From NCBI GenBank assembly GCA_017508065.1, contig JAFVZR010000013.1:1-32514 (forward strand): a stretch of 32,514 bases of DNA, written 5' to 3'. The notes beneath the pieces are model-generated. The model was given only the letters and a program-made list of their open reading frames with translations, was not told the origin of the DNA and made no database searches. Origin of the DNA: Candidatus Methanomethylophilaceae archaeon. GTDB taxonomy: Archaea; Thermoplasmatota; Thermoplasmata; Methanomassiliicoccales; Methanomethylophilaceae. Shown piece after piece: positions 2,773 to 13,381 of the stretch. Every line of letters begins with the position of its first letter. The first letter of the stretch is position 1. The translations under genes and the position numbers were made by a program.

Positions 2773-3921
2773 TCACTCCCTGATCTCCAAAGATTTCACA
2801 CCGCTTTCTTTAGGTAGGCTGAAGGAAGGTACGGTCAATTCGAACTCTCCCTTCTCGATCCAATCCTTGAGCTCGTTGGCAATGGCACGGGCATACTTGT
2901 AGGAGGAGAGCGGCGAGGTCCTGATGGTGTGACCCTCGTACTCGATGGATCCGCTCCTCAGGTCAGCATAACTGTACTGCTGCATCGCGGGCCTGCTGCT
3001 GCTTGTGATGCTGTAGTCCATCATGTTTGCGAATATCTCCTCGTCGGAGATCGCACAGTTCTTCATGATGTCCGCGTTGAGGATCGGGATGGGCACTCCG
3101 ACACCGACGGCCATGGATGTACCGTATCCGTAGATGTCGAGTCCTCTGATGTACTTGTTGCTCATCTGTTTCAGGTCACCGATGAGTGCGAGCGTCCTGG
3201 AACCGGAGATGGGCACACCGTTCTTCTCAGGCTTCTGGGTGTTGAATTGGGTTCCCTGCCATGCGACGTATCCGATTCCCCCTCCGAGGAAGATCCTGGT
3301 CCCTACACCGATGGTGTCGAGATGAGGGTCGTTGAGAAGAGGGGACAGCTGTCCTGCGGAACTGTATGTGGCGTTCTTCATCCTGGGCAGGAGCTTTCCC
3401 ATGTATGTGTGGAGGGTCCTGTCGGATGTGTTGGTGGCGATACCGTAGTTCTGATAGGTGTTTCTAGGATTGTAGAGGTATGCCTCGTTGAGCTCATCGA
3501 GGGTGAAGGAGGTCCTGATGTTCTTCCTGACGTAACAGTCGGTTCCGGGACCCCATGCCTCGAGTTCGATCCTCTTTCCAGCGAGGAGGTCCTCGATGAC
3601 GTGTGCTCCTCCATAGCCCTTGATGGTCTCACTGACTGCAGTGGCTCCGACGTACGTATCAACGGCTGCAAGTCCGCCGTATGCTTCGACACCGTTCACA
3701 CGGATGTTGCACATCCTGATCGGTGGGTCGCTGTGACCGAAGTTGAGGAATGCACCGGAGGAGCACATCGCACCGAATGTACCGGTGGTGACGACGTCCA
3801 CTTCCTCTGCGGCCTTCTCGGCACCCTTGCTTCTGACCAGGTCGATGGCCTCCTCCGCAGTGCAGACGACTGCCTTTCCACTGCGGATCTTCTCGTTGAT
3901 CTGTTCGATCGTCTTTGCCAC
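2773..3921 (-). CDS. DUF39 (COG1900) homocysteine biosynthesis protein
   Basis: A 382-residue DUF39 protein. In Methanosarcina acetivorans the homologue MA1821 is needed, with the NIL-ferredoxin MA1822, to convert aspartate semialdehyde and sulfide into homocysteine, which replaces the usual acylhomoserine route. The two cysteines reported as important in that protein have clear counterparts: Cys53 in GAMCSSGAFLNFGHSDPP and Cys129 in GPGTDCYVRK. Other family blocks are AYGGLAAVDTYVGAT, GGGIGYVAWQGTQF and GVGVPIPILN. No C-terminal CBS domains are present, unlike in some relatives. The start has a ribosome binding site (GAGGTG) seven bases upstream and lies 9 bases after the asd stop. Asd makes the substrate, so the order of the operon follows the chemistry. 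Confidence 0.9.
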   Translation of the reverse strand: MAKTIEQINEKIRSGKAVVCTAEEAIDLVRSKGAEKAAEEVDVVTTGTFGAMCSSGAFLNFGHSDPPIRMCNIRVNGVEAYGGLAAVDTYVGATAVSETIKGYGGAHVIEDLLAGKRIELEAWGPGTDCYVRKNIRTSFTLDELNEAYLYNPRNTYQNYGIATNTSDRTLHTYMGKLLPRMKNATYSSAGQLSPLLNDPHLDTIGVGTRIFLGGGIGYVAWQGTQFNTQKPEKNGVPISGSRTLALIGDLKQMSNKYIRGLDIYGYGTSMAVGVGVPIPILNADIMKNCAISDEEIFANMMDYSITSSSRPAMQQYSYADLRSGSIEYEGHTIRTSPLSSYKYARAIANELKDWIEKGEFELTVPSFSLPKESGVKSLEIRE

Positions 3922-3930
3922 GTTAGCACC

Positions 3931-4992
3931 TCAGATGAGACCCTTCTTAACGGCAAGTTCTGCGTTAAGGACGGATCCTCCAGCACCTCCCCTGAGTGTG
4001 TTGTGGGAGAGGGCGAAGATCTTGTAGTATTCTTCCTTCTTTCTGATCCTTCCGACGGTGACCGCCATTCCCTTGGACCTTCCGGTTCCTCCTGCGAACA
4101 CATCGTATGCGGGCTGGGGGCGGTTGGCCTCCTTCCTCACGATGATGGGCTGTGGGGGTGCGGAGGGGAGGTCGAGGAGCTGGGGCTCACCCTTGAACTT
4201 CTCGAACGCATCGATGATCTCCTCGACGGAGGGCTCGCTTCCGAGCTTGAGTGTGAGGGACTCGAGGTGTCCGTCCACGACGGGGACCCTTGCGCAGTTT
4301 GCGAAGGTCCTGAACTTGGCGAAGTTGAACTTTCCGTTCTCGTAGGTTCCGAGCATCTTGGCGAGCTCGGACTCCATCTTCTCCTCCTCTCCTCCGATGT
4401 AGGGGATGACGTTTCCTACCGCATCGAGCGAGGGGACTCCGGGATATCCTGCACCGGAGAGTGCCTGATAGGTGGAGATGAACGCCTCCTCGAGTCCGAA
4501 GGTGTCCCTGAGGACCGCGAGGGGTGCTGCGATACCGGTGGAGGAACAGTTGGCGTTGGTGATGATGAATCCGCCGTTGGAGAAGGTCTTCTGATCCTTC
4601 ACGGAGAAGAGGTGATCGGGGTTGACCTCGGGGATGAGAATGGGGACATCGGCATCCATCCTGTGGGATCCTGCGTTGGTGAAGACTCCGACACCGTTCT
4701 CCGCGAGTTCGGTCTCGGTAGGTCCTGCGAGATCAGAAGGGATTCCGCTGAATGCGATGCGACAGTTCTTTGCAATCTTGGAGACGTCCATGACCTCGAT
4801 CTTGGTGTCGAGGGTCTCCTCCTTGTAGACGTAGTCCCTGACCTTGAGGACGTCCCTGAGGCTCTTTCCCTCGGACCTCTCGGATGCGTAAAGCCCTTCC
4901 ATCTCGAAGTAAGGGTGGTCCTCGAGCATCTCGATGAACCTCTGTCCGATCATACCAGTGGCGCCTAGGATTGCAACTTTGATTTTTTCCAT
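3931..4992 (-). CDS. asd: Aspartate-semialdehyde dehydrogenase, archaeal type
   Basis: Reduces aspartyl phosphate to aspartate semialdehyde, the branch point for threonine, methionine and lysine. The 353-residue protein has an N-terminal Rossmann motif (VAILGATGMIGQRF, residues 6-19) and the catalytic cysteine Cys149 in NANCSSTG. The segment VDGHLESL and the end AGGSVLNAELAVKKGL are typical of the archaeal/fungal subfamily. The ATG at 4992 is chosen because MEKIKVAILGATG is the normal N-terminus and GAGTGAT stands just upstream. A longer reading from 5097 only adds 35 unrelated residues that cover the promoter region. Asd leads an operon with the three homocysteine genes, so its product is probably passed straight to the DUF39 protein (inference). 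Confidence 0.95.
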   Translation of the reverse strand: MEKIKVAILGATGMIGQRFIEMLEDHPYFEMEGLYASERSEGKSLRDVLKVRDYVYKEETLDTKIEVMDVSKIAKNCRIAFSGIPSDLAGPTETELAENGVGVFTNAGSHRMDADVPILIPEVNPDHLFSVKDQKTFSNGGFIITNANCSSTGIAAPLAVLRDTFGLEEAFISTYQALSGAGYPGVPSLDAVGNVIPYIGGEEEKMESELAKMLGTYENGKFNFAKFRTFANCARVPVVDGHLESLTLKLGSEPSVEEIIDAFEKFKGEPQLLDLPSAPPQPIIVRKEANRPQPAYDVFAGGTGRSKGMAVTVGRIRKKEEYYKIFALSHNTLRGGAGGSVLNAELAVKKGLI

Positions 4993-5983: not shown

Positions 5984-6712
5984 TCACTTCATAGTGGCCT
6001 TGCGGAACTTCCTTCCGCAGAGCAGTACCATACATACTGAAAGTACCAGCAGGATGGACATCTCCATCAGCGGGAACGATCCGGCCGCAGCTGCCCTTGT
6101 GGCATCGATGGCATAGCTCAGGGGATTCAGTTTGGCGATCCAGAAGAGCCAGGTGGGCATCATATCGTAGGACACCAACGCGGTTGATGCGAAGTACAAC
6201 GGCATGGACACGAACGACTGGAACGCAGCGTACGAATCGTGGTTCCCAAGGTACAGTGCCACTGTGGTACCGAGGGAGGAGAAGAACACTCCGAACATGA
6301 ACAGGATCAGATACATCTCCAGATATGCCAGAGGGGACAATATCGTTGCACCTATCAGTATGGATATCACTAGGATGACGGTGGCCTGAAGCAGTCCTCT
6401 AATCGTTATGAACATTATCTTCCCTGCGAGGATGGATTCCCTGGGGGCAGGCATGGCAAGGAACTTGTTGAGGTATCCCAACATCTTGTCGAACATGAGG
6501 GACGATCCTCCGGACAGTCCCGCCGTCATCACGGTCATGACCAATATACTGGGTGTGACATAGTCGAGGTAGTTCCCGTCCCATTCCACGGGCATGACGA
6601 GTCCCATGAACAAGAGCCAGGCACATGGCATGGCAAGTGTTGAAAGGACGTTCATGGGTGCTCTCGACCATCTGATGATGTCACGTCTGACGTATGCCAA
6701 TGCTCTGTACAT
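5984..6712 (-). CDS. ABC-2 type transporter permease
   Basis: A 242-residue membrane protein with about six hydrophobic segments, for example VLSTLAMPCAWLLFMGLVMP, YVTPSILVMTVMTAG, ATVILVISILIGATIL, ILFMFGVFFSSLGTTVAL and a final ILLVLSVCMVLLCG. This matches the ABC-2 (DrrB-like) permease family, generally exporters. The ATG at 6712 lies one base after the ATPase stop and has a strong ribosome binding site (GAGGAGG), so the two are a pair. It is the last gene of the carAB-chlID-cobN array. The cargo is unknown. The family differs from the BtuCD and CbiMNOQ cobalt or cobalamin importers, so uptake should not be assumed. Confidence 0.85.
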   Translation of the reverse strand: MYRALAYVRRDIIRWSRAPMNVLSTLAMPCAWLLFMGLVMPVEWDGNYLDYVTPSILVMTVMTAGLSGGSSLMFDKMLGYLNKFLAMPAPRESILAGKIMFITIRGLLQATVILVISILIGATILSPLAYLEMYLILFMFGVFFSSLGTTVALYLGNHDSYAAFQSFVSMPLYFASTALVSYDMMPTWLFWIAKLNPLSYAIDATRAAAAGSFPLMEMSILLVLSVCMVLLCGRKFRKATMK

Positions 6713-6713
6713 C

Positions 6714-7676
6714 TCAGCGCCTCCTCATCATGTTCTCGAACTGTTTCTGATTGAATCCGTCCGAATCGGAATTCATCTTACCTACCGATTGGAGGTACAC
6801 GTCCTCCAGAGTAGGCTCCCTCACGGTGGACGAATACACCTTGATGCCCTCATCATTCAAAAGTGCCAGCATCGCAGGGAGGGATTCGGAACCGTTGTCG
6901 GAGGTCACCATGATCTCACCGTTCTCGTCCCTCACCAGGGCAACACCCTCTGGGAGTTCCTTCAGCGGTGCGTGGGAATCCGTCCTTATGGTTATGACGG
7001 ACTTCATCTGGGATGTGAGGTCAGATGGGACACCTTCGTTGACCAGGTCACCCTTCTTCAGGATACCTACCCTGTCACAGTATCTCTCCGCCTCGTCCAT
7101 CTGATGTGTCGTCACGAAGATCGTTACTCCATGATTCTTCAGATTGACGATGTATTCCCATATGGAACGTCTTGCAGCCACATCCAATCCGACGGTGGGC
7201 TCGTCCAGGAACAACACCTCTGGTTGATGTACCAGCGCCTGTGCCAGTTCCAACCTTCTCCTCATTCCTCCGGAATATCCTTTGGTGAGGTCGTCCGCAC
7301 GGTCGGAGAGGTTCATGATCTCCAACGCATCCTCGACGCGTCTCCTCCTTTCGTGCCTGTCCCTGATTCCGTACAGACGGGCGAAGAAATCCACGTTCTC
7401 TCTGCCGGTCATCCTGATGTCCACTGCCATGTCCTGTGGGACGTAGCTCATGCATTCCCTGACGGCGGACTGTTCTGTGGCGATATCGTGACCGCAGATG
7501 ACTGCGGAACCCGCGGTGGGTCTCATCAACGTGGTCAGCATACTGACCGTGGTGGTCTTTCCGGATCCGTTGGGTCCCAGGAGCCCATAGACCTCGTTGT
7601 CGACGGAAAGGTCGATCCCATTGACCGCACGATTGTTACCATAATCCTTCGTAAGACCATGTGCCAGTATCTTCAT
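6714..7676 (-). CDS. ABC transporter ATP-binding protein, DrrA-like
   Basis: A 320-residue ATPase with Walker A GPNGSGKTT (34-42), Q-loop VPQD (79-82), signature YSGGM (134-138), Walker B VLFLDEP (Asp158, Glu159) and the switch histidine in TTH. A C-terminal extension of about 90 residues is usual for DrrA-type ATPases that pair with ABC-2 permeases. Its ATG overlaps the stop of cobN as ATGA, so it is translationally coupled to the cobaltochelatase large subunit. The partner permease follows directly. A link to tetrapyrrole or metal handling is suggested only by position. Confidence 0.9.
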   Translation of the reverse strand: MKILAHGLTKDYGNNRAVNGIDLSVDNEVYGLLGPNGSGKTTTVSMLTTLMRPTAGSAVICGHDIATEQSAVRECMSYVPQDMAVDIRMTGRENVDFFARLYGIRDRHERRRRVEDALEIMNLSDRADDLTKGYSGGMRRRLELAQALVHQPEVLFLDEPTVGLDVAARRSIWEYIVNLKNHGVTIFVTTHQMDEAERYCDRVGILKKGDLVNEGVPSDLTSQMKSVITIRTDSHAPLKELPEGVALVRDENGEIMVTSDNGSESLPAMLALLNDEGIKVYSSTVREPTLEDVYLQSVGKMNSDSDGFNQKQFENMMRRR

Positions 7677-10600
7677 CTTCTCGCCTTCTTGTCGTGGATT
7701 TTGTTCATGAGTTCGGCAATGTCCTTACCGATCGGGAGTTCTTCAGGAGAGATCATGGATGCCTCCCCGCCCTGGATGTCCTCTCCGTCGGAGAGGTCCT
7801 CCATCCAGGATTCGATCTCGAGATATGAGCTTCTGAGTCTGTCCAAGGTCTCCTCGTCCGCATCCCAAATGCCTCTGCTCTCGGCCTCGAGGAGTCTGCG
7901 TGATATCTCCTCTGCGGCATGCGGGTTGTTGTTACCGAAGAACCTTCTCATCTCCGGGTCATTGACATACGTGTCAGCGATACCGTCGAAGATGGCATCC
8001 TCCACTTCTCCGGTGGATGCTCCCCAACCATAGACCCTGGTGATCTTCTTCATCATGTCCGCCGCACCCTTGTATCCGTGGGCCTTCATACCCTCGATCC
8101 ATTTGGGATTCAGTAGTTTGGATCTCACCACACGGCCGATCTCATCTGAGAGTGTGCGTACACCGACGGAATCCCTTTCCCTGGTGTCGCCGTAATATGT
8201 GTTGACCTTCTTCTCGGACATCTGTCTGGCGGCGGCTGTGAGACCACCCTGGTTACTGTAGTAGCAGCAACATCCGAGGAGGTCATGGTCGTCGGACACG
8301 ACCTTGTTGAATGTGAGCGATACGTTCTCGAGTGCGGAAGCGAACTGTAGCTGGGACTCCTTCCCTTTCCTTCCGCCTCCGTATGCGTATCCGTTAACGG
8401 AGATGTAGATGCCGGCAAGGTCCTTCTCATCGGTCCAAGCACCGGAAAGAACTGCAAGGTTCACTCCGCTCGTGTATGTGCCGGGTTTGGAGGAGAACAA
8501 TCTGGCGGTCGCTCCGTCCATGTCCGTTCCGTTGGACAATTCCTCTCTGACGTGTTTCGCTATGAAGTTGACATCATCTGGTTCATCGAGTGCGGCAACG
8601 GCCCTTATCGCGGAATCTACCAGGTCCAACCTGTCGGGGAACGTATCCCTGAGGATACCGGAGATCCTGGCCGTGACATCTATCCTGGGGTGTACCAACT
8701 GTTCCTGTGGTACTATCCTGAATGAATTCACATGGCCTGCGGGGTTCCAGACCGGTTCCACACCGAGCAGGGAGAATATCTCCGCCATCATCTCCCCGTC
8801 GGAGGCCATGATGTCGTTCGTCATCCATTGGAACGCTACGGATTCGGGATAGTCCCCCTCATCCTGGACGTACTTGTCCAACAGGGCATCGGCGAGACGG
8901 GTACCGACCCTCCATGCGGAACGGGTGGGAACTCTCCTGGGGTCCAACGAATAGAAGTTCCTTCCGGTGGGAAGGACGTCGTCCCTTCCTCTGGAGATGT
9001 ATCCGGAAGGTCCTGCGGATGTGTATCCGCCGTTCAACGCGTTGATGAGTGAACCGATCTCATCGGAATCCCCCATACGGGTGGCTATGTCCCTGATGCG
9101 ATCCATGTATGAATCCAACCCATCGATCGGATCGGAACCGATGGATGAGAGTATACCCTCTTCATCCATTCCTCTGAGTGTCAATTTTATGATGATGTTG
9201 CATCTCTTGATGACGGTCTCGGCGAGTGCACCTTTGGTCACACCCTTGTCCTTATCGAACACGTTCCTGTTGGAGAGGAGGTCGGAATAGTCCAGTCCCA
9301 TCGCCGATGCTACGGATTGTGGTAAGGACGGTTCTCCCGAGCGTGACATGATCGAGGATATGAGGTCGACGGTCTGTTGGAAAGTCAGTTCGGAACCGAA
9401 CGTGTGCAATCCCGTCTCGGTACGGCTGTTCCTCATCAGGGATAACATGTCGTGGCATCTCGCGATGATGGAATCCATATCTCCGTCATGGTCCGCGGGG
9501 ACATCGTCCAATCCACACTCTTCCATGACCTCCAGGATCTCGTGTTGGAGGGCATGTGCTCTGGCGGGATCGAATCTCGAGGTCTCGTACTCGTTGACGA
9601 TGTCGTCGAGTCTCTGGTACGCTCCATACAGGCCTCCCATAGCGGTAGGTGCCTGCATGTGTCCGATGAGTGTGGAATAGATGCGTCTCTTTGCCACGGA
9701 TCCCTCTGGAGGGTTGTCCGTGTTGTACGCGTAGAACACAGGCATGTCCCTGACGGTGATGTCGGGATAACAGTCCTCGGAGAGACCGATGGCCTTTCCG
9801 GGAAGGAACTCGGTGGTCCCGTGGGTTCCCACATGGATGATGGCATCCGCTTTGAAGACATCCCTGATGAAGTGGTAGGTTGCAAGATATTGGTGTGAGG
9901 GTGGACATTCCGGATCGTGGAGGATCATACATGCGGTACCGTCGCATTTGGCACCCATGCATCCACGTTTGGGTTGTACCATGACTATGGCATTGCCGAA
10001 TCTGAGACCTGTGATCATGAGGTTCCCGTCGATGCACATGGACTCTCCGGGAGGTTCTCCCCAGGATCCGATCATCTTGGTCCTGACCTTCTCGGGCAGT
10101 GTGGAGAAGTATTCCTCGTATCTCTCGCCGGGCATCATGTAGATGCATCCTCCGCTGTCACGAATCATCTCCTTGGACGTCCATCTGAATTCGGAGTATG
10201 CCTTGCGTTCCATGAACAACCTCGTCAACGCTTCCGAACTCTCCGGAACATCGACGTCGTATCCTGCATCGCACAGTCCCCGAAGGATGTTGACCACCGA
10301 TGCTGCGGAATCCAGTCCTGCTGCGGAACCTATGTTGGCCTCCACGGATGCACAGGGGCTGTTGTTCAGGATCAGTACGACCCTCTTCTCGGAGTTGTCC
10401 TTCTCGGCGAGACCTATCCTTCTTTTGATCCTCTCCGCGATCCTTCTGCATCTTCCCGGAACGGAGCACCTGTTGTACAGGTCGTTGCTGTCGGAGCGGG
10501 TGGCTGCCAACATCAACGGTTCGATCGCGCCCTCGAATTCAGGCATGGTGACGCTCCAAGGTATGTCCGCAGTTATCCCGTCGGACGCCCCCCATTCCTC

Positions 10601-11452
10601 CAGGGACGATTCCAATGAGATTATCGGTTGGAATATGGGGATGTTCATCGATGCAAGGAGTTCGTCCGTCAATCTGGACGATGTCTCATGGTCGAGGTCG
10701 GGGCGTTTTCCGATGAGGAAAGTGACCAGTTTCACCAATGCGGACACTATAGGTCTTCCGTCCCTGATCAGATGTAGTTCGATGCATTCCGCTATGTTGA
10801 TCGAACCCATCTCCTCATTGTGGAGTGAGTTCGTCATGATCGGTACGACTCCTAATCCTACGTTCTCCAGTTCACGGATCAGTTCATCCTCCACGGGATG
10901 CTGGTTGCTGATCCATGAGCTCCTGGACAGGATGAGCGCCACAAGTCTTCTGTCACGGTGTCCGTACCATTCCAGATACTCCTCCGACGATGGGAAAATC
11001 CTCTTGGGGTCGTCGGGGTGTACGATACCCTGCCACGGGATGACCTTGGGTTCGGAATATGGGATGGTATCGTCGATGAACGTGTTCTCAATGAAACGGA
11101 ACATGTTCTCCAGATTGTCGTGATCGCCGCTCTGTTCGTAGGCGTATACCTTCGATACGATAGCAGGATCCACGGTGGAAAGTCCCCAGTACGAGGGGTC
11201 CTGTCCGAAACAGATTATCTTCTTGTCATTCAGGTCGGATATGAATGGTACGATCTCATCCCAGAACTGATGTGTCGTCCTGTGGATGACTATGATGTTG
11301 GATCCCTTCAGGTCCTCCTTCAGAAGCTCCAGTCTCTCCCGGTCGGTATCCAATTCCCTTTCGGAATAGACCTTGGTATCGAATTCGGATGTTCTCGCGA
11401 GGGAGGATATCGTCGGATACAGAGTATCCCAGATGACTATCGTAAGCTTCAT
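7673..11452 (-). CDS. cobN: Cobaltochelatase large subunit, CobN/ChlH family
   Basis: The large subunit of class I chelatases, which binds the tetrapyrrole and the metal while ChlI/ChlD-type AAA+ subunits supply ATP energy. The 1259-residue length is typical. The family signature is near residue 538: HVGTHGTTEFLPGKAIGL followed by SEDCYPD, and later NTDNPPEGSVAKRR. Other typical blocks are GCMGAKCDGTACMI and YGGGRKGKESQLQF. ATG 11452 (MKLTIVIWD) is preferred over 11470: it sits one base after the chlD stop and has AGGTGTGA directly upstream. Cobalt is the likely metal, because the neighbours are ChlI/ChlD and methanogens need corrinoids; magnesium is unlikely without chlorophyll genes. Nickel insertion for F430 uses the unrelated small chelatase CfbA. 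The exact step in corrinoid synthesis is not shown by sequence. Confidence 0.9.
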   Translation of the reverse strand: MKLTIVIWDTLYPTISSLARTSEFDTKVYSERELDTDRERLELLKEDLKGSNIIVIHRTTHQFWDEIVPFISDLNDKKIICFGQDPSYWGLSTVDPAIVSKVYAYEQSGDHDNLENMFRFIENTFIDDTIPYSEPKVIPWQGIVHPDDPKRIFPSSEEYLEWYGHRDRRLVALILSRSSWISNQHPVEDELIRELENVGLGVVPIMTNSLHNEEMGSINIAECIELHLIRDGRPIVSALVKLVTFLIGKRPDLDHETSSRLTDELLASMNIPIFQPIISLESSLEEWGASDGITADIPWSVTMPEFEGAIEPLMLAATRSDSNDLYNRCSVPGRCRRIAERIKRRIGLAEKDNSEKRVVLILNNSPCASVEANIGSAAGLDSAASVVNILRGLCDAGYDVDVPESSEALTRLFMERKAYSEFRWTSKEMIRDSGGCIYMMPGERYEEYFSTLPEKVRTKMIGSWGEPPGESMCIDGNLMITGLRFGNAIVMVQPKRGCMGAKCDGTACMILHDPECPPSHQYLATYHFIRDVFKADAIIHVGTHGTTEFLPGKAIGLSEDCYPDITVRDMPVFYAYNTDNPPEGSVAKRRIYSTLIGHMQAPTAMGGLYGAYQRLDDIVNEYETSRFDPARAHALQHEILEVMEECGLDDVPADHDGDMDSIIARCHDMLSLMRNSRTETGLHTFGSELTFQQTVDLISSIMSRSGEPSLPQSVASAMGLDYSDLLSNRNVFDKDKGVTKGALAETVIKRCNIIIKLTLRGMDEEGILSSIGSDPIDGLDSYMDRIRDIATRMGDSDEIGSLINALNGGYTSAGPSGYISRGRDDVLPTGRNFYSLDPRRVPTRSAWRVGTRLADALLDKYVQDEGDYPESVAFQWMTNDIMASDGEMMAEIFSLLGVEPVWNPAGHVNSFRIVPQEQLVHPRIDVTARISGILRDTFPDRLDLVDSAIRAVAALDEPDDVNFIAKHVREELSNGTDMDGATARLFSSKPGTYTSGVNLAVLSGAWTDEKDLAGIYISVNGYAYGGGRKGKESQLQFASALENVSLTFNKVVSDDHDLLGCCCYYSNQGGLTAAARQMSEKKVNTYYGDTRERDSVGVRTLSDEIGRVVRSKLLNPKWIEGMKAHGYKGAADMMKKITRVYGWGASTGEVEDAIFDGIADTYVNDPEMRRFFGNNNPHAAEEISRRLLEAESRGIWDADEETLDRLRSSYLEIESWMEDLSDGEDIQGGEASMISPEELPIGKDIAELMNKIHDKKARR

Positions 11453-11453
11453 T

Positions 11454-12269
11454 TCACACCTGTGTAGCATTCTTCGCAGCCTTGGATATGGCGTCGCTTC
11501 CGATGTCGTCCAGTTTCATATATTTGGCACCCAACGCATCGGACATCTTCTTGCCCAATCCCAATTTGATCATTCCCTGTTCCGTATCGAGGAACAGTGA
11601 CCTGAACCTGTTCTCCCTGATGGATATGCACATCTTCAGACTGTCATCCGTGGGATCGTTACCCTTGATGAGGGGGATGTTCCCTCTTCCGTCGGATACG
11701 ACCACGAGGAGATACAGGTCCTTGGGGCGTTTCACACGTTCGTTCATCAATAGTCTTTCGGCAACCGCCAATCCCTTGGCCAAAGGGGTCTTCCCACCGG
11801 TGGGCATGACTTCCATCCTGCGTTTGGCCAGTTCCACACTGTTCGTCGGTGGGACGAGGATCTCCGCACCCGGTCCTCTGAACGATACGAGGGCGACCCT
11901 GTCCCTCTTCTGATAAGCGTCGGTGAGGATGGACAACATCGCACCTTTGACTGCGGACATCCTCTTCCTCGCACCCATGGATCCGCTCGCATCCACCAGG
12001 AACACGATGGTGACCCCGGTCCTGCGTTGGTAGACCTTCTCCATGACATCGGTGTCCTTGATGGATAGATTTCCATCCTCCGTGACGCTTCCGTTCCTGG
12101 CCGCGGTCCTTACCGTGGCATCTATGGCGATGCTCCTTGGTTTACCGTGGGGGGCTCTGCTACCTGTGTACCTTCCGGAGTATGACTCCGTCTCGGAACG
12201 TCTGCCGGTGCTGTCCCGCACGATACTGTCGATCCTCAGTTGCGGGTCGATTTCCGAGGATCTTATGCG
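11454..12269 (-). CDS. chlD: ChlD part (VWA domain) of chelatase, reached by -1 frameshift
   Basis: This reading frame encodes the C-terminal, von Willebrand factor A half of a ChlD/BchD-type subunit. The MIDAS motif DASGSMG and the later [11 protein letters not shown] and VVSDGRGN are clear. The first conventional start is GTG at 12221, but homology begins earlier: the residues [20 protein letters not shown] before it, and [13 protein letters not shown] after it, match the linker between the AAA+ and VWA parts of fused ChlI-ChlD proteins. The frame is -1 relative to chlI and is entered at CCCTTTC (12275-12269). A shifted ribosome would make a 642-residue fusion (371 + 271 residues) with MIDAS near residue 464. 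No ribosome binding site supports an independent start at 12221. A separate short ChlD cannot be fully excluded. Confidence 0.85.
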
Positions 12270-12275
12270 AAAGGG
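12215..12275 (-). other. Programmed -1 ribosomal frameshift signal with pseudoknot
   Basis: On the minus strand the chlI frame reads C CCT TTC at 12275-12269, an exact X XXY YYZ heptamer. After a 6-base spacer that contains the zero-frame stop TAA (12265-12263) comes stem 1, GATCCTC (12262-12256) with GAGGATC (12237-12231). Its loop carries CCCGCA (12246-12241), which pairs with TGCGGG (12220-12215) to form an H-type pseudoknot. Slippery site, spacer length, structure and the match of homology on both sides all agree. Programmed frameshifting in chlD genes giving both subunits is established in cobalamin producers; this instance is inferred. Confidence 0.85.
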
Positions 12276-13381
12276 TCGGTCGCTTTGAAGTTCTTCGTCG
12301 AGGATCCGTCGGGAGTGTCGCTTCCGGTCTGTTCGGTAGGCTCACTGTTCTTTCCGATGGATTCGTCGACGGCCTCCTCGATCCTCTTCTCGTCGGTCTC
12401 TGGATCGTCGAAGGGGGTCTTCTTCATACGGTGTGCGAGTACCAATCCTGCCGCTTCGCGGATATCGTCCTCGTTGACCTCGGTCCTGCCCGCGAATGCC
12501 GCGATGGCGGAACAGGTCTTCATCATGGTGATGTCCCCGCGGTGTCCGTCCACACCTAATTTGATGCAGATATCGACGATTATACGGAGCATGTCCTTGG
12601 AGATCCTTACCTGCGGAAGGAGTTCCTTCGCCTTCATGATCATGTCGGCGGTGGCCTCGTCCTCCTTGGACCATTTCTCGATGAATGCCTTCTGATCACT
12701 TTCGAATTCGGCACGTCTCAGGATGATCTCCAATCTGGTCTCGGGATCGTCTATCCCTATGACGTTGACGCACAGTCCGAAACGGTCGAGCAACTGTGGT
12801 CTGAGGTCCCCCTCTTCGGGGTTCATGGTTCCGATGAGGATGAAGTTGGATGGATGGGAGTACGAGATCCCTTCACGTTCTACGGTGTTGACACCCATGG
12901 CCGCCGCGTCGAGGAGCACATCCACGATATGGTCGTTGAGAAGGTTCACTTCGTCCACGTACAGGATGTTCCTGTGTGCCTCGGCGAGGATACCAGGTTC
13001 GAACTTCCTCTCTCCGTGTTTGATCGCAGCGGAGATGTCCAAGGTTCCAACTACCTTATCCTCCGTGGCGGAGATCGGCAGTTCTACGACTCTCATCCTC
13101 TGACTCGCTGCCTGACGTGCGGGGTTCTCCCTGCACTTCTTGCACATCTCCTCGGGCTCGTTGGGATCGCAGGAGAACTCACAGCCGACCACGACATCGT
13201 GTTTGGGCAGGAGTGCCGCGAGGGACCTGACGGATGTGGATTTCGCGGTCCCTCTGTCCCCCTTGATCAGAACTCCGCCGATCCCGGGGTTGATGGCGTT
13301 AAGCATCAGGGCGGTCTTCATACGCTCCTGGCCTACGATGGCCGAGAATGGAAAGAGCACACGCTCGTGATGCTCGGACAT
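12263..13381 (-). CDS. chlI: ChlI-type AAA+ ATPase of cobaltochelatase (zero-frame product)
   Basis: A 372-residue AAA+ motor protein of the BchI/ChlI family, working with the VWA subunit and CobN. Walker A is GDRGTAKST (41-49); Walker B is [11 protein letters not shown]; the sensor and arginine-finger region shows [21 protein letters not shown]. Four cysteines in [17 protein letters not shown] (67, 71, 80, 83) could hold a metal, as in many non-photosynthetic members. The acidic tail after residue 330 is the linker normally found in ChlI-ChlD fusions. The zero frame stops right after the slippery site, so this is the size of a stand-alone small subunit. The ATG lies 4 bases after carB with AGGTGAG upstream. 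Confidence 0.92.

Follow-up and report, generated by a model that had tools for sequence, protein, structure and literature searches.

The window, i.e. the whole stretch of 32,514 nucleotides that was analysed, carries on its reverse strand the genes for a small (ChlI) and a medium (ChlD) chelatase subunit in a -1 relation, followed directly by the gene for a large subunit of the CobN type. The elements of this locus are the following, with all coordinates being those of the window:

12263..13381, (-): ChlI, small chelatase subunit, AAA+ ATPase, the zero-frame product (372 residues, ending ..ATDPFA; Pfam Mg_chelatase and AAA_lid_2)
12269..12275, (-): slippery heptamer C CCT TTC, in zero phase relative to chlI, identical in 8/8 genomes
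12263..12265, (-): zero-frame stop TAA, one codon past the heptamer (TAA or TGA at the equivalent place in all eight genomes)
11454..12269, (-): -1 frame part, ChlD linker and VWA domain (271 residues; with the shift, a predicted fusion of 642 residues)
12254..12262, (-): stem 1, 5' arm GATCCTCGG, six bases past the heptamer
12231..12239, (-): stem 1, 3' arm CTGAGGATC, forming nine pairs with 12262-12254
12241..12246, (-): putative stem 2, 5' arm CCCGCA, located in the stem 1 loop (moderate support)
12215..12220, (-): putative stem 2, 3' arm TGCGGG, closing the proposed H-type pseudoknot (moderate support)
12219..12221, (-): first GTG of the -1 frame past the heptamer, a rival start (a GTG in all five genes from the window's family, a GTA in the three of the second group)
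7673..11470, (-): gene for a large chelatase subunit of the cobN/chlH type, directly following the frameshift gene (Pfam CobN-Mg_chel, 1168.9 bits)

The chlI frame ends in AAA GCG ACC GAC CCT TTC GCA TAA, i.e. K A T D P F A stop, and no stop interrupts the -1 frame between the heptamer and position 11454. The original prediction had the chlI frame ending at a TAA just past C CCT TTC (12275-12269), which is what we found (stop at 12265-12263), and the product lengths it gave, 372 and 642 residues, match the frames read from the sequence. At the level of protein families, the cut-off of TIGR02442 (NCBIfam 'putative cobaltochelatase', 641 positions; cut-off 779.45) is cleared by the fusion only, with 787.4 bits over positions 1-641; neither half clears it alone, ChlI reaching 533 bits (positions 1-351) and the -1 part 260.9 bits (positions 403-641). 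According to Pfam, the fusion gains a VWA_2 domain over ChlI alone. A CobN gene adjoins the frameshift gene in the window and in all seven other frameshift loci (see below), lying downstream on the same strand in the window's family and divergently in the second group, where the contig of G449 stops inside cobN. By family assignment, the locus thus encodes a putative CobN-type cobaltochelatase with ChlI and ChlD subunits. No Rfam families were found in the window. As to the further surroundings, cobN is immediately followed by a drrA/drrB-like ABC transporter pair (5987-7724, (-)), and the product of 2776-3930 (-) is a relative of 'methanogenesis marker 16' that scores 132.6 bits, far under the cut-off of 363.95.

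The start of the ChlD part can be read from relatives that hold I and D in a single frame. These proteins run through the site (..ATEEFRVRRDVLNADVRLD.. in L074, ..TGEEFSVKHNSIDSRLRID.. in L034 and ..EGSAFRVNQQPFSPSRRID.. in L166), with joins such as ..ATEEF|RVR.. and ..EGSPF|RLD.. versus ..ATDPF|RIR.. in the window, so the D part begins at the heptamer, 16 codons ahead of the GTG at 12221. The claim that ChlD homology starts at the heptamer in the -1 frame, ahead of that GTG, is therefore borne out. The existence of fused single-frame relatives had been named beforehand as evidence against a frameshift. Such relatives do exist, but those examined are without a zero-phase heptamer and stop, and since they also show where the two halves join, they do not refute the shift.

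The junction C CCT TTC GCN TRA is present in eight genomes from two archaeal orders, five from the window's family and three from the order of G449, a genome titled Methanomicrobium, and all eight junctions read GA CCCTTTC GCN TRA. A DNA search with the junction recovered it in 5 of the 147 genomes of the window's order, namely G000 (the genome of the window), G001, G010, G022 and G031, the last three forming a second genus; G022 corresponds to isolate AS10tlH2TH_373 and G031 to Methanomassiliicoccales archaeon RumEn M2. A class-wide search by protein alignment (400 genomes, at least 84 of them with a match at E <= 1e-30) yielded no further case that was recognised among the matches listed. 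In a scan of named genome contigs, for which the best 80 loci were kept and the loci cut by a contig end (L073, L123, L141, L144 and L145) were left unscored, C CCT TTC plus stop was found in three of these 80 (L066, L069 and L068, the latter from Methanomicrobium sp. RGIG7908) and a -1 overlap of another kind in L075, L088 and L133. At least 3 of 232 genomes of the order to which L068 belongs carry the same junction (G449 itself, G564 and G566), and for 392 genomes sampled from the phylum of G449 only G449 was recognised among the matches listed. The motif CCCTTTCGCNTRA occurs in 31 of 239 loci, all from these eight genomes.

A search for other types of frameshifted chlD among short D frames covered ten loci (L218-L227), five of which gave a result: a clear A-rich -1 chlI/chlD overlap in L221 (G562:C20), an A-rich overlap scored +1 in L224 (G533:C62), a long overlap, likewise scored +1, in L226, a run of N in L222 and no partner frame in reach in L225. 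The junction motif is not present in L218, L219, L220, L223 and L227. A-rich chlI/chlD overlaps were seen in other frameshift genes (L088, L133 and L221). Some loci showed irregularities of their own: the chlD of RumEn M2 (L004 / L238, G031) shows a further frame break towards its end, with 216 in-frame residues versus about 271, and its last part matches separately; in L108 (Methanoperedenaceae GB37) a frame break lies in the ChlI part at about 4260-4359, upstream of the usual join, with 247 residues open; and in G564 and G566 (L228, L229) the frameshift gene is followed by a frame of 380-400 amino acids ending ..LIGGVFFIYLIVKGRGAGLE, perhaps a membrane segment.

The heptamer fits the pattern X_XXY_YYZ with CCC and TTT, and its sequence would allow both tRNAs to re-pair after a -1 slip (Pro CCU to CCC, Phe UUC to UUU). 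Counting heptamers in zero phase with Y = A/T and Z other than G, it is the sole X XXY YYZ in the chlI, chlD and cobN genes and the carB stretch of the window (8,856 bases). In the same genes CCT encodes 16 of 126 prolines and TTC 78 of 79 phenylalanines. These counts, the common junction of the eight genomes and the recoding of the window gene described below speak against a chance occurrence. CCCTTTC by itself is not rare everywhere, since G010 has two more zero-phase copies in the gene upstream. Nor are the encoded residues remarkable by themselves: when 13 in-frame genes are aligned at the join, 9 have Pro-Phe at the slip place and 12 have Phe, in mixed codons, so that protein constraint accounts for part of the heptamer. 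Pro-Phe as a peculiarity of frameshift genes was dropped on the same count, and judged from these alignments the pair is older than, or independent of, the frameshift. Among 40 tRNA matches of the draft genome there is a single tRNA-Pro (UGG), with no tRNA-Phe or tRNA-Pro(GGG); tRNA-Asp is missing too, and because this set is incomplete no conclusion on the decoding tRNAs is drawn.

Downstream of the heptamer, the predicted 7-bp stem GATCCTC/GAGGATC is present at a distance of six bases, within the usual spacer range of 5-9, and extends to nine base pairs. The original prediction had proposed to look in related genomes for the heptamer and for covarying stem pairs, and both were found: the heptamer is there in 8/8, and stem 1 is wholly paired in all eight genomes (63 of 63 cells over seven distinct sequences) while pairs 1, 5 and 8 are altered on both sides (GC/GU/AU, CG/UA and GC/GU/AU, respectively). 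The covariation score of 0.423 was matched by 0 of 500 shuffles and the three two-sided changes by 16 of 500, counts that are not probabilities because the sequences are related; the eight, which fall in three tight clusters, are also a small set. When the partner arm was slid by 1-3 columns, the paired cells fell to 22-60%. RNAalifold recovers stem 1 unprompted. It additionally pairs the CCC of the heptamer with a downstream GGG, a pairing we set aside because a ribosome on the heptamer would open it. Plain minimum free energy z-scores are weak in the window's family (-0.86 for the window element, -0.25 for a second sequence) and about -2 in the second group. We consider stem 1, a structure predicted from sequence, to be established by this comparison.

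The RNA element is under strong synonymous constraint, as measured over codons that encode the same residue in both members of a pair, the 19 codons past the heptamer being compared with those beyond codon 30. Synonymous differences number 0/17 past the heptamer versus 83/208 beyond codon 30 for G000-G001, 1/19 versus 104/202 for G010-G022 and 0/18 versus 64/198 for G449-G564, giving a P of 1.3e-9 for the three separate pairs (Fisher's combination). The suppression extends to the more distant pair G000-G010, with a D part that is 56% identical (0/12 versus 82/127), and is absent between the two groups (8/12 and 9/11 synonymous codons differ). Seven in-frame control pairs, some using the same gene twice, showed no suppression at the same place (P 0.088 to 0.76). 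The constraint begins at the heptamer and spans the fold: the 12 codons ahead of the heptamer vary synonymously (4/10, 2/10 and 3/11), and codons 13-19, which lie past stem 1, do not (0/5, 0/6 and 0/6; combined P 0.005). At the base level, the 63-base element has 2, 1 and 1 differences in the three pairs versus 14, 12 and 12 in the next 60 bases. These four differences fall at positions 28, 49, 36 and 14 (counting from the first C of the heptamer), three of them in predicted loops and one changing a G-U into an A-U in stem 1.

The interpretation that we favour, with a probability of roughly 0.93, is that of a programmed -1 ribosomal frameshift in an archaeal chlID gene, from a methanogen. Ribosomes staying in the zero frame would terminate at the chlI stop and release the small subunit of 372 residues. 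A fraction of the ribosomes would be held at C_CCU_UUC by the RNA fold six bases downstream, the Pro- and Phe-tRNAs would re-pair one base back (on CCC and UUU) and the ribosome would enter the D frame, yielding a medium subunit of 642 residues with AAA+ and VWA domains. Both subunits would work with the adjacently encoded CobN-type large subunit as a metal chelatase. What the comparison shows directly is the arrangement of the frames, their conservation, the synonymous constraint and the covariation in stem 1; the occurrence and efficiency of the shift, the tandem slippage, stem 2 of the pseudoknot and the composition and metal of the complex are what we infer from the sequence.

It is likely that the stimulating fold is a pseudoknot. 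The predicted arms CCCGCA and TGCGGG lie where they had been placed and can pair, and all five genes from the window's family retain them, one pair changing from A-U to G-U; what did not hold throughout is the register, which shifts in three of the eight genes and leaves the support moderate. In this second group two of the six stem 2 pairs are lost in the window's register and a nearby CTCCC/GGGAG pair is available instead (own search script and duplex calculation). The shifting register, together with the fact that all two-sided changes sit in stem 1, suits a variant that is compatible with the frameshift as such, namely that a plain 9-bp hairpin stimulates the shift and that the pairing between its loop and the downstream sequence is a by-product. 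Recoding speaks on both sides. When the 3' part alone was recoded, stem 2 was matched in 622 and 751 of 3000 cases for two other genes, as the plain hairpin would have it, but in only 26 of 3000 for the window gene. In four genes recoded synonymously, stem 1 plus stem 2 came out as strong as the real ones in 0/300 (window gene), 0/300, 4/300 and 4/300 trials, by an additive score that is not a pseudoknot energy. A second stem of 5-6 bp is possible in all eight genes (-10 to -11.8 kcal/mol), and this, like the constraint on codons 13-19 past stem 1, argues against the plain hairpin, which we regard as possible but doubtful.

With either fold, a programmed frameshift has to be weighed against the synthesis of a separate, short ChlD: ribosomes that have terminated at the chlI stop would re-initiate, in a coupled manner, on the GTG at 12221, and the overlap of the frames would be incidental. 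All five genes from the window's family have this GTG 44 bases past the stop's first base, and in the window a weak GAGG is found 12 bases ahead of it. However, the codon is GTA in the other three genes, the residues ahead of it (R.RSS...P...ID) are conserved and align with the in-frame relatives, and the constraint begins at the heptamer and covers the fold, all of which makes such a start very improbable. That the assembly is in error or the gene is decaying is hardly credible. One could point to the draft state of the genome (231 contigs), but this reading is contradicted by the identical break and heptamer in eight genomes, which are as good as a resequencing, and by a D frame protein that is 86-93% similar in close pairs while 18-51% of the synonymous codons beyond codon 30 differ. 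Equally hard to credit is a transcriptional slippage that joins the frames: the long A runs in chlD overlaps elsewhere (L088, L133, L221) could slip, but CCCTTTC has no run of more than three bases and is followed by a conserved RNA fold.

The programmed frameshift favoured here concerns a known kind of gene. The accessible part of Antonov 2013 (PMC3711429) describes a cluster of 23 chlD genes with a -1 shift, which includes Methanocaldococcus and Methanococcus, and reports values of 63, 40 and 10% for cassettes of three such genes in E. coli. The assertion that frameshifting of chlD is established, archaea included, is thus in print, but as far as that text goes the archaeal cases were predicted from sequence, with the three cassettes from the cluster tested in E. 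coli. These genes, which occur in bacteria as well as archaea, share with the window gene, as far as the accessible texts characterise them, the -1 relation of chlI and chlD, the supply of both a small and a medium subunit by a single gene and the proposed link to CobN-type chelatases. The window gene differs in its site and in its structure. Frameshift sites are, in the available part of Kuznetsov 2022 (PMC9227772), usually AT-rich with downstream structures, and the chlD site is given as A_AAA_AAR, with a structure whose sequence is not strongly conserved, in that of PMC5009743; here the site is C_CCU_UUC (Pro-Phe) in 8/8, and the structure is near-invariant within each group and covaries between the groups.

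Two other systems invite comparison. The fucA gene of Saccharolobus solfataricus (alpha-L-fucosidase), according to the accessible parts of PMC8211752 and PMC8037382 the sole archaeal gene with demonstrated expression by -1 frameshifting, is likewise chromosomal and has a slippery heptamer and a putative stem-loop. According to the same texts, its site contains an A stretch, two strains have the break, a polypeptide from the smaller ORF was never detectable, and a covarying structure is not described in them. The viral X_XXY_YYZ signals with pseudoknot share with the window the heptamer, a spacer of 5-9 bases (six here) and possibly a two-stemmed fold (PMC8211752, as far as accessible), whereas the signal in the window lies in a cellular archaeal gene and its stem 2 has a putative role. 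In the literature on archaeal and methanogen frameshifting we found no description of C_CCU_UUC with a covarying structure in chlD, in line with the suspicion that the pseudoknot signal was undescribed, and a listing in Antonov 2020 is possible. What we have is thus very probably a real programmed -1 signal in a gene of a known kind, for whose heptamer type and covarying RNA element we found no earlier description.

As far as these sources go, -1 frameshifting in archaea otherwise rests, apart from predictions, on a single chromosomal gene for which it was demonstrated and on a few viral genes. The present signal is chromosomal, is backed by comparison down to single base pairs and consists of a defined heptamer and a compact fold, and its presence in the rumen-type genome RumEn M2 and relatives offers a ready test of whether archaeal ribosomes answer heptamer-plus-fold signals as those of viral hosts do. 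It also suggests that a chlD frameshift need not use a poly-A site, and it carries a warning for annotation, in which such a gene will be split or its D half called a short protein.

In-frame chlID fusions of other methanogens (G014, G016, G007, G489, G588 and others) have the same domain order as the frameshift genes, a CobN gene within 8.5-10 kb in the six loci examined and often Pro-Phe at the join, but they have no frame break, no zero-phase C CCT TTC plus stop at the join and, in the seven pairs tested, no synonymous constraint there. They are also the nearest protein relatives in a quick maximum-likelihood tree of 31 ID proteins, in which long branches were flagged by the program. The eight frameshift genes fall in one branch of 13 genes (SH-aLRT 99) together with five in-frame genes, G489 standing beside the second group (SH-aLRT 85) and G014, G016, G007 and L074 beside the window's group (SH-aLRT 94). 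The tree implies at least two changes of state between frameshift and in-frame, and both two gains and one gain with two losses would fit it. One origin is attractive because heptamer, stop position and stem position are common to both groups, and horizontal transfer is possible. A wider hypothesis, which we put forward as speculation, is that a pseudoknot-stimulated -1 signal of the viral kind, of one origin or transferred, would serve two distant archaeal orders to tune the ratio of small to medium subunit of a CobN chelatase, and would be regulated via the wyosine of Phe-tRNA or via the cofactor state; wyosine comes in because PMC5009743, in its accessible part, states that this modification of Phe-tRNA can affect shifting at U-rich sites.

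Whether such systems need a free small subunit was judged from the other ChlI-like genes. In five of the eight genomes (G022, G031, G449, G564 and G566) no ChlI-like match (E <= 1e-20) other than the frameshift gene was found, several genomes being incomplete. A rule that an in-frame gene is always accompanied by a separate chlI holds for G014, G016 and G007, where such a gene adjoins it, and was rejected on G489, G588, G642 and G644, which have one in-frame fused ID gene and no other ChlI-like match, so that it is not evident that every system of this type requires a free small subunit. A mirror signal as in dnaX, in which a shift leads to the short product, was looked for by inspecting the linkers of 13 in-frame genes, taken from Methanoregula and the second order (including G489, G588, G644 and G642), which revealed no shared heptamer/stop pattern. 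Additional chlI genes, belonging to other chelatase sets, are present in G000, G001 and G010. The genome of the window (G000) contains three further chlI genes (on C24, C91 and C182), each followed by a fused chlD, and two further CobN genes (on C91 and C182), the CobN match on C91 holding an inner TAA.
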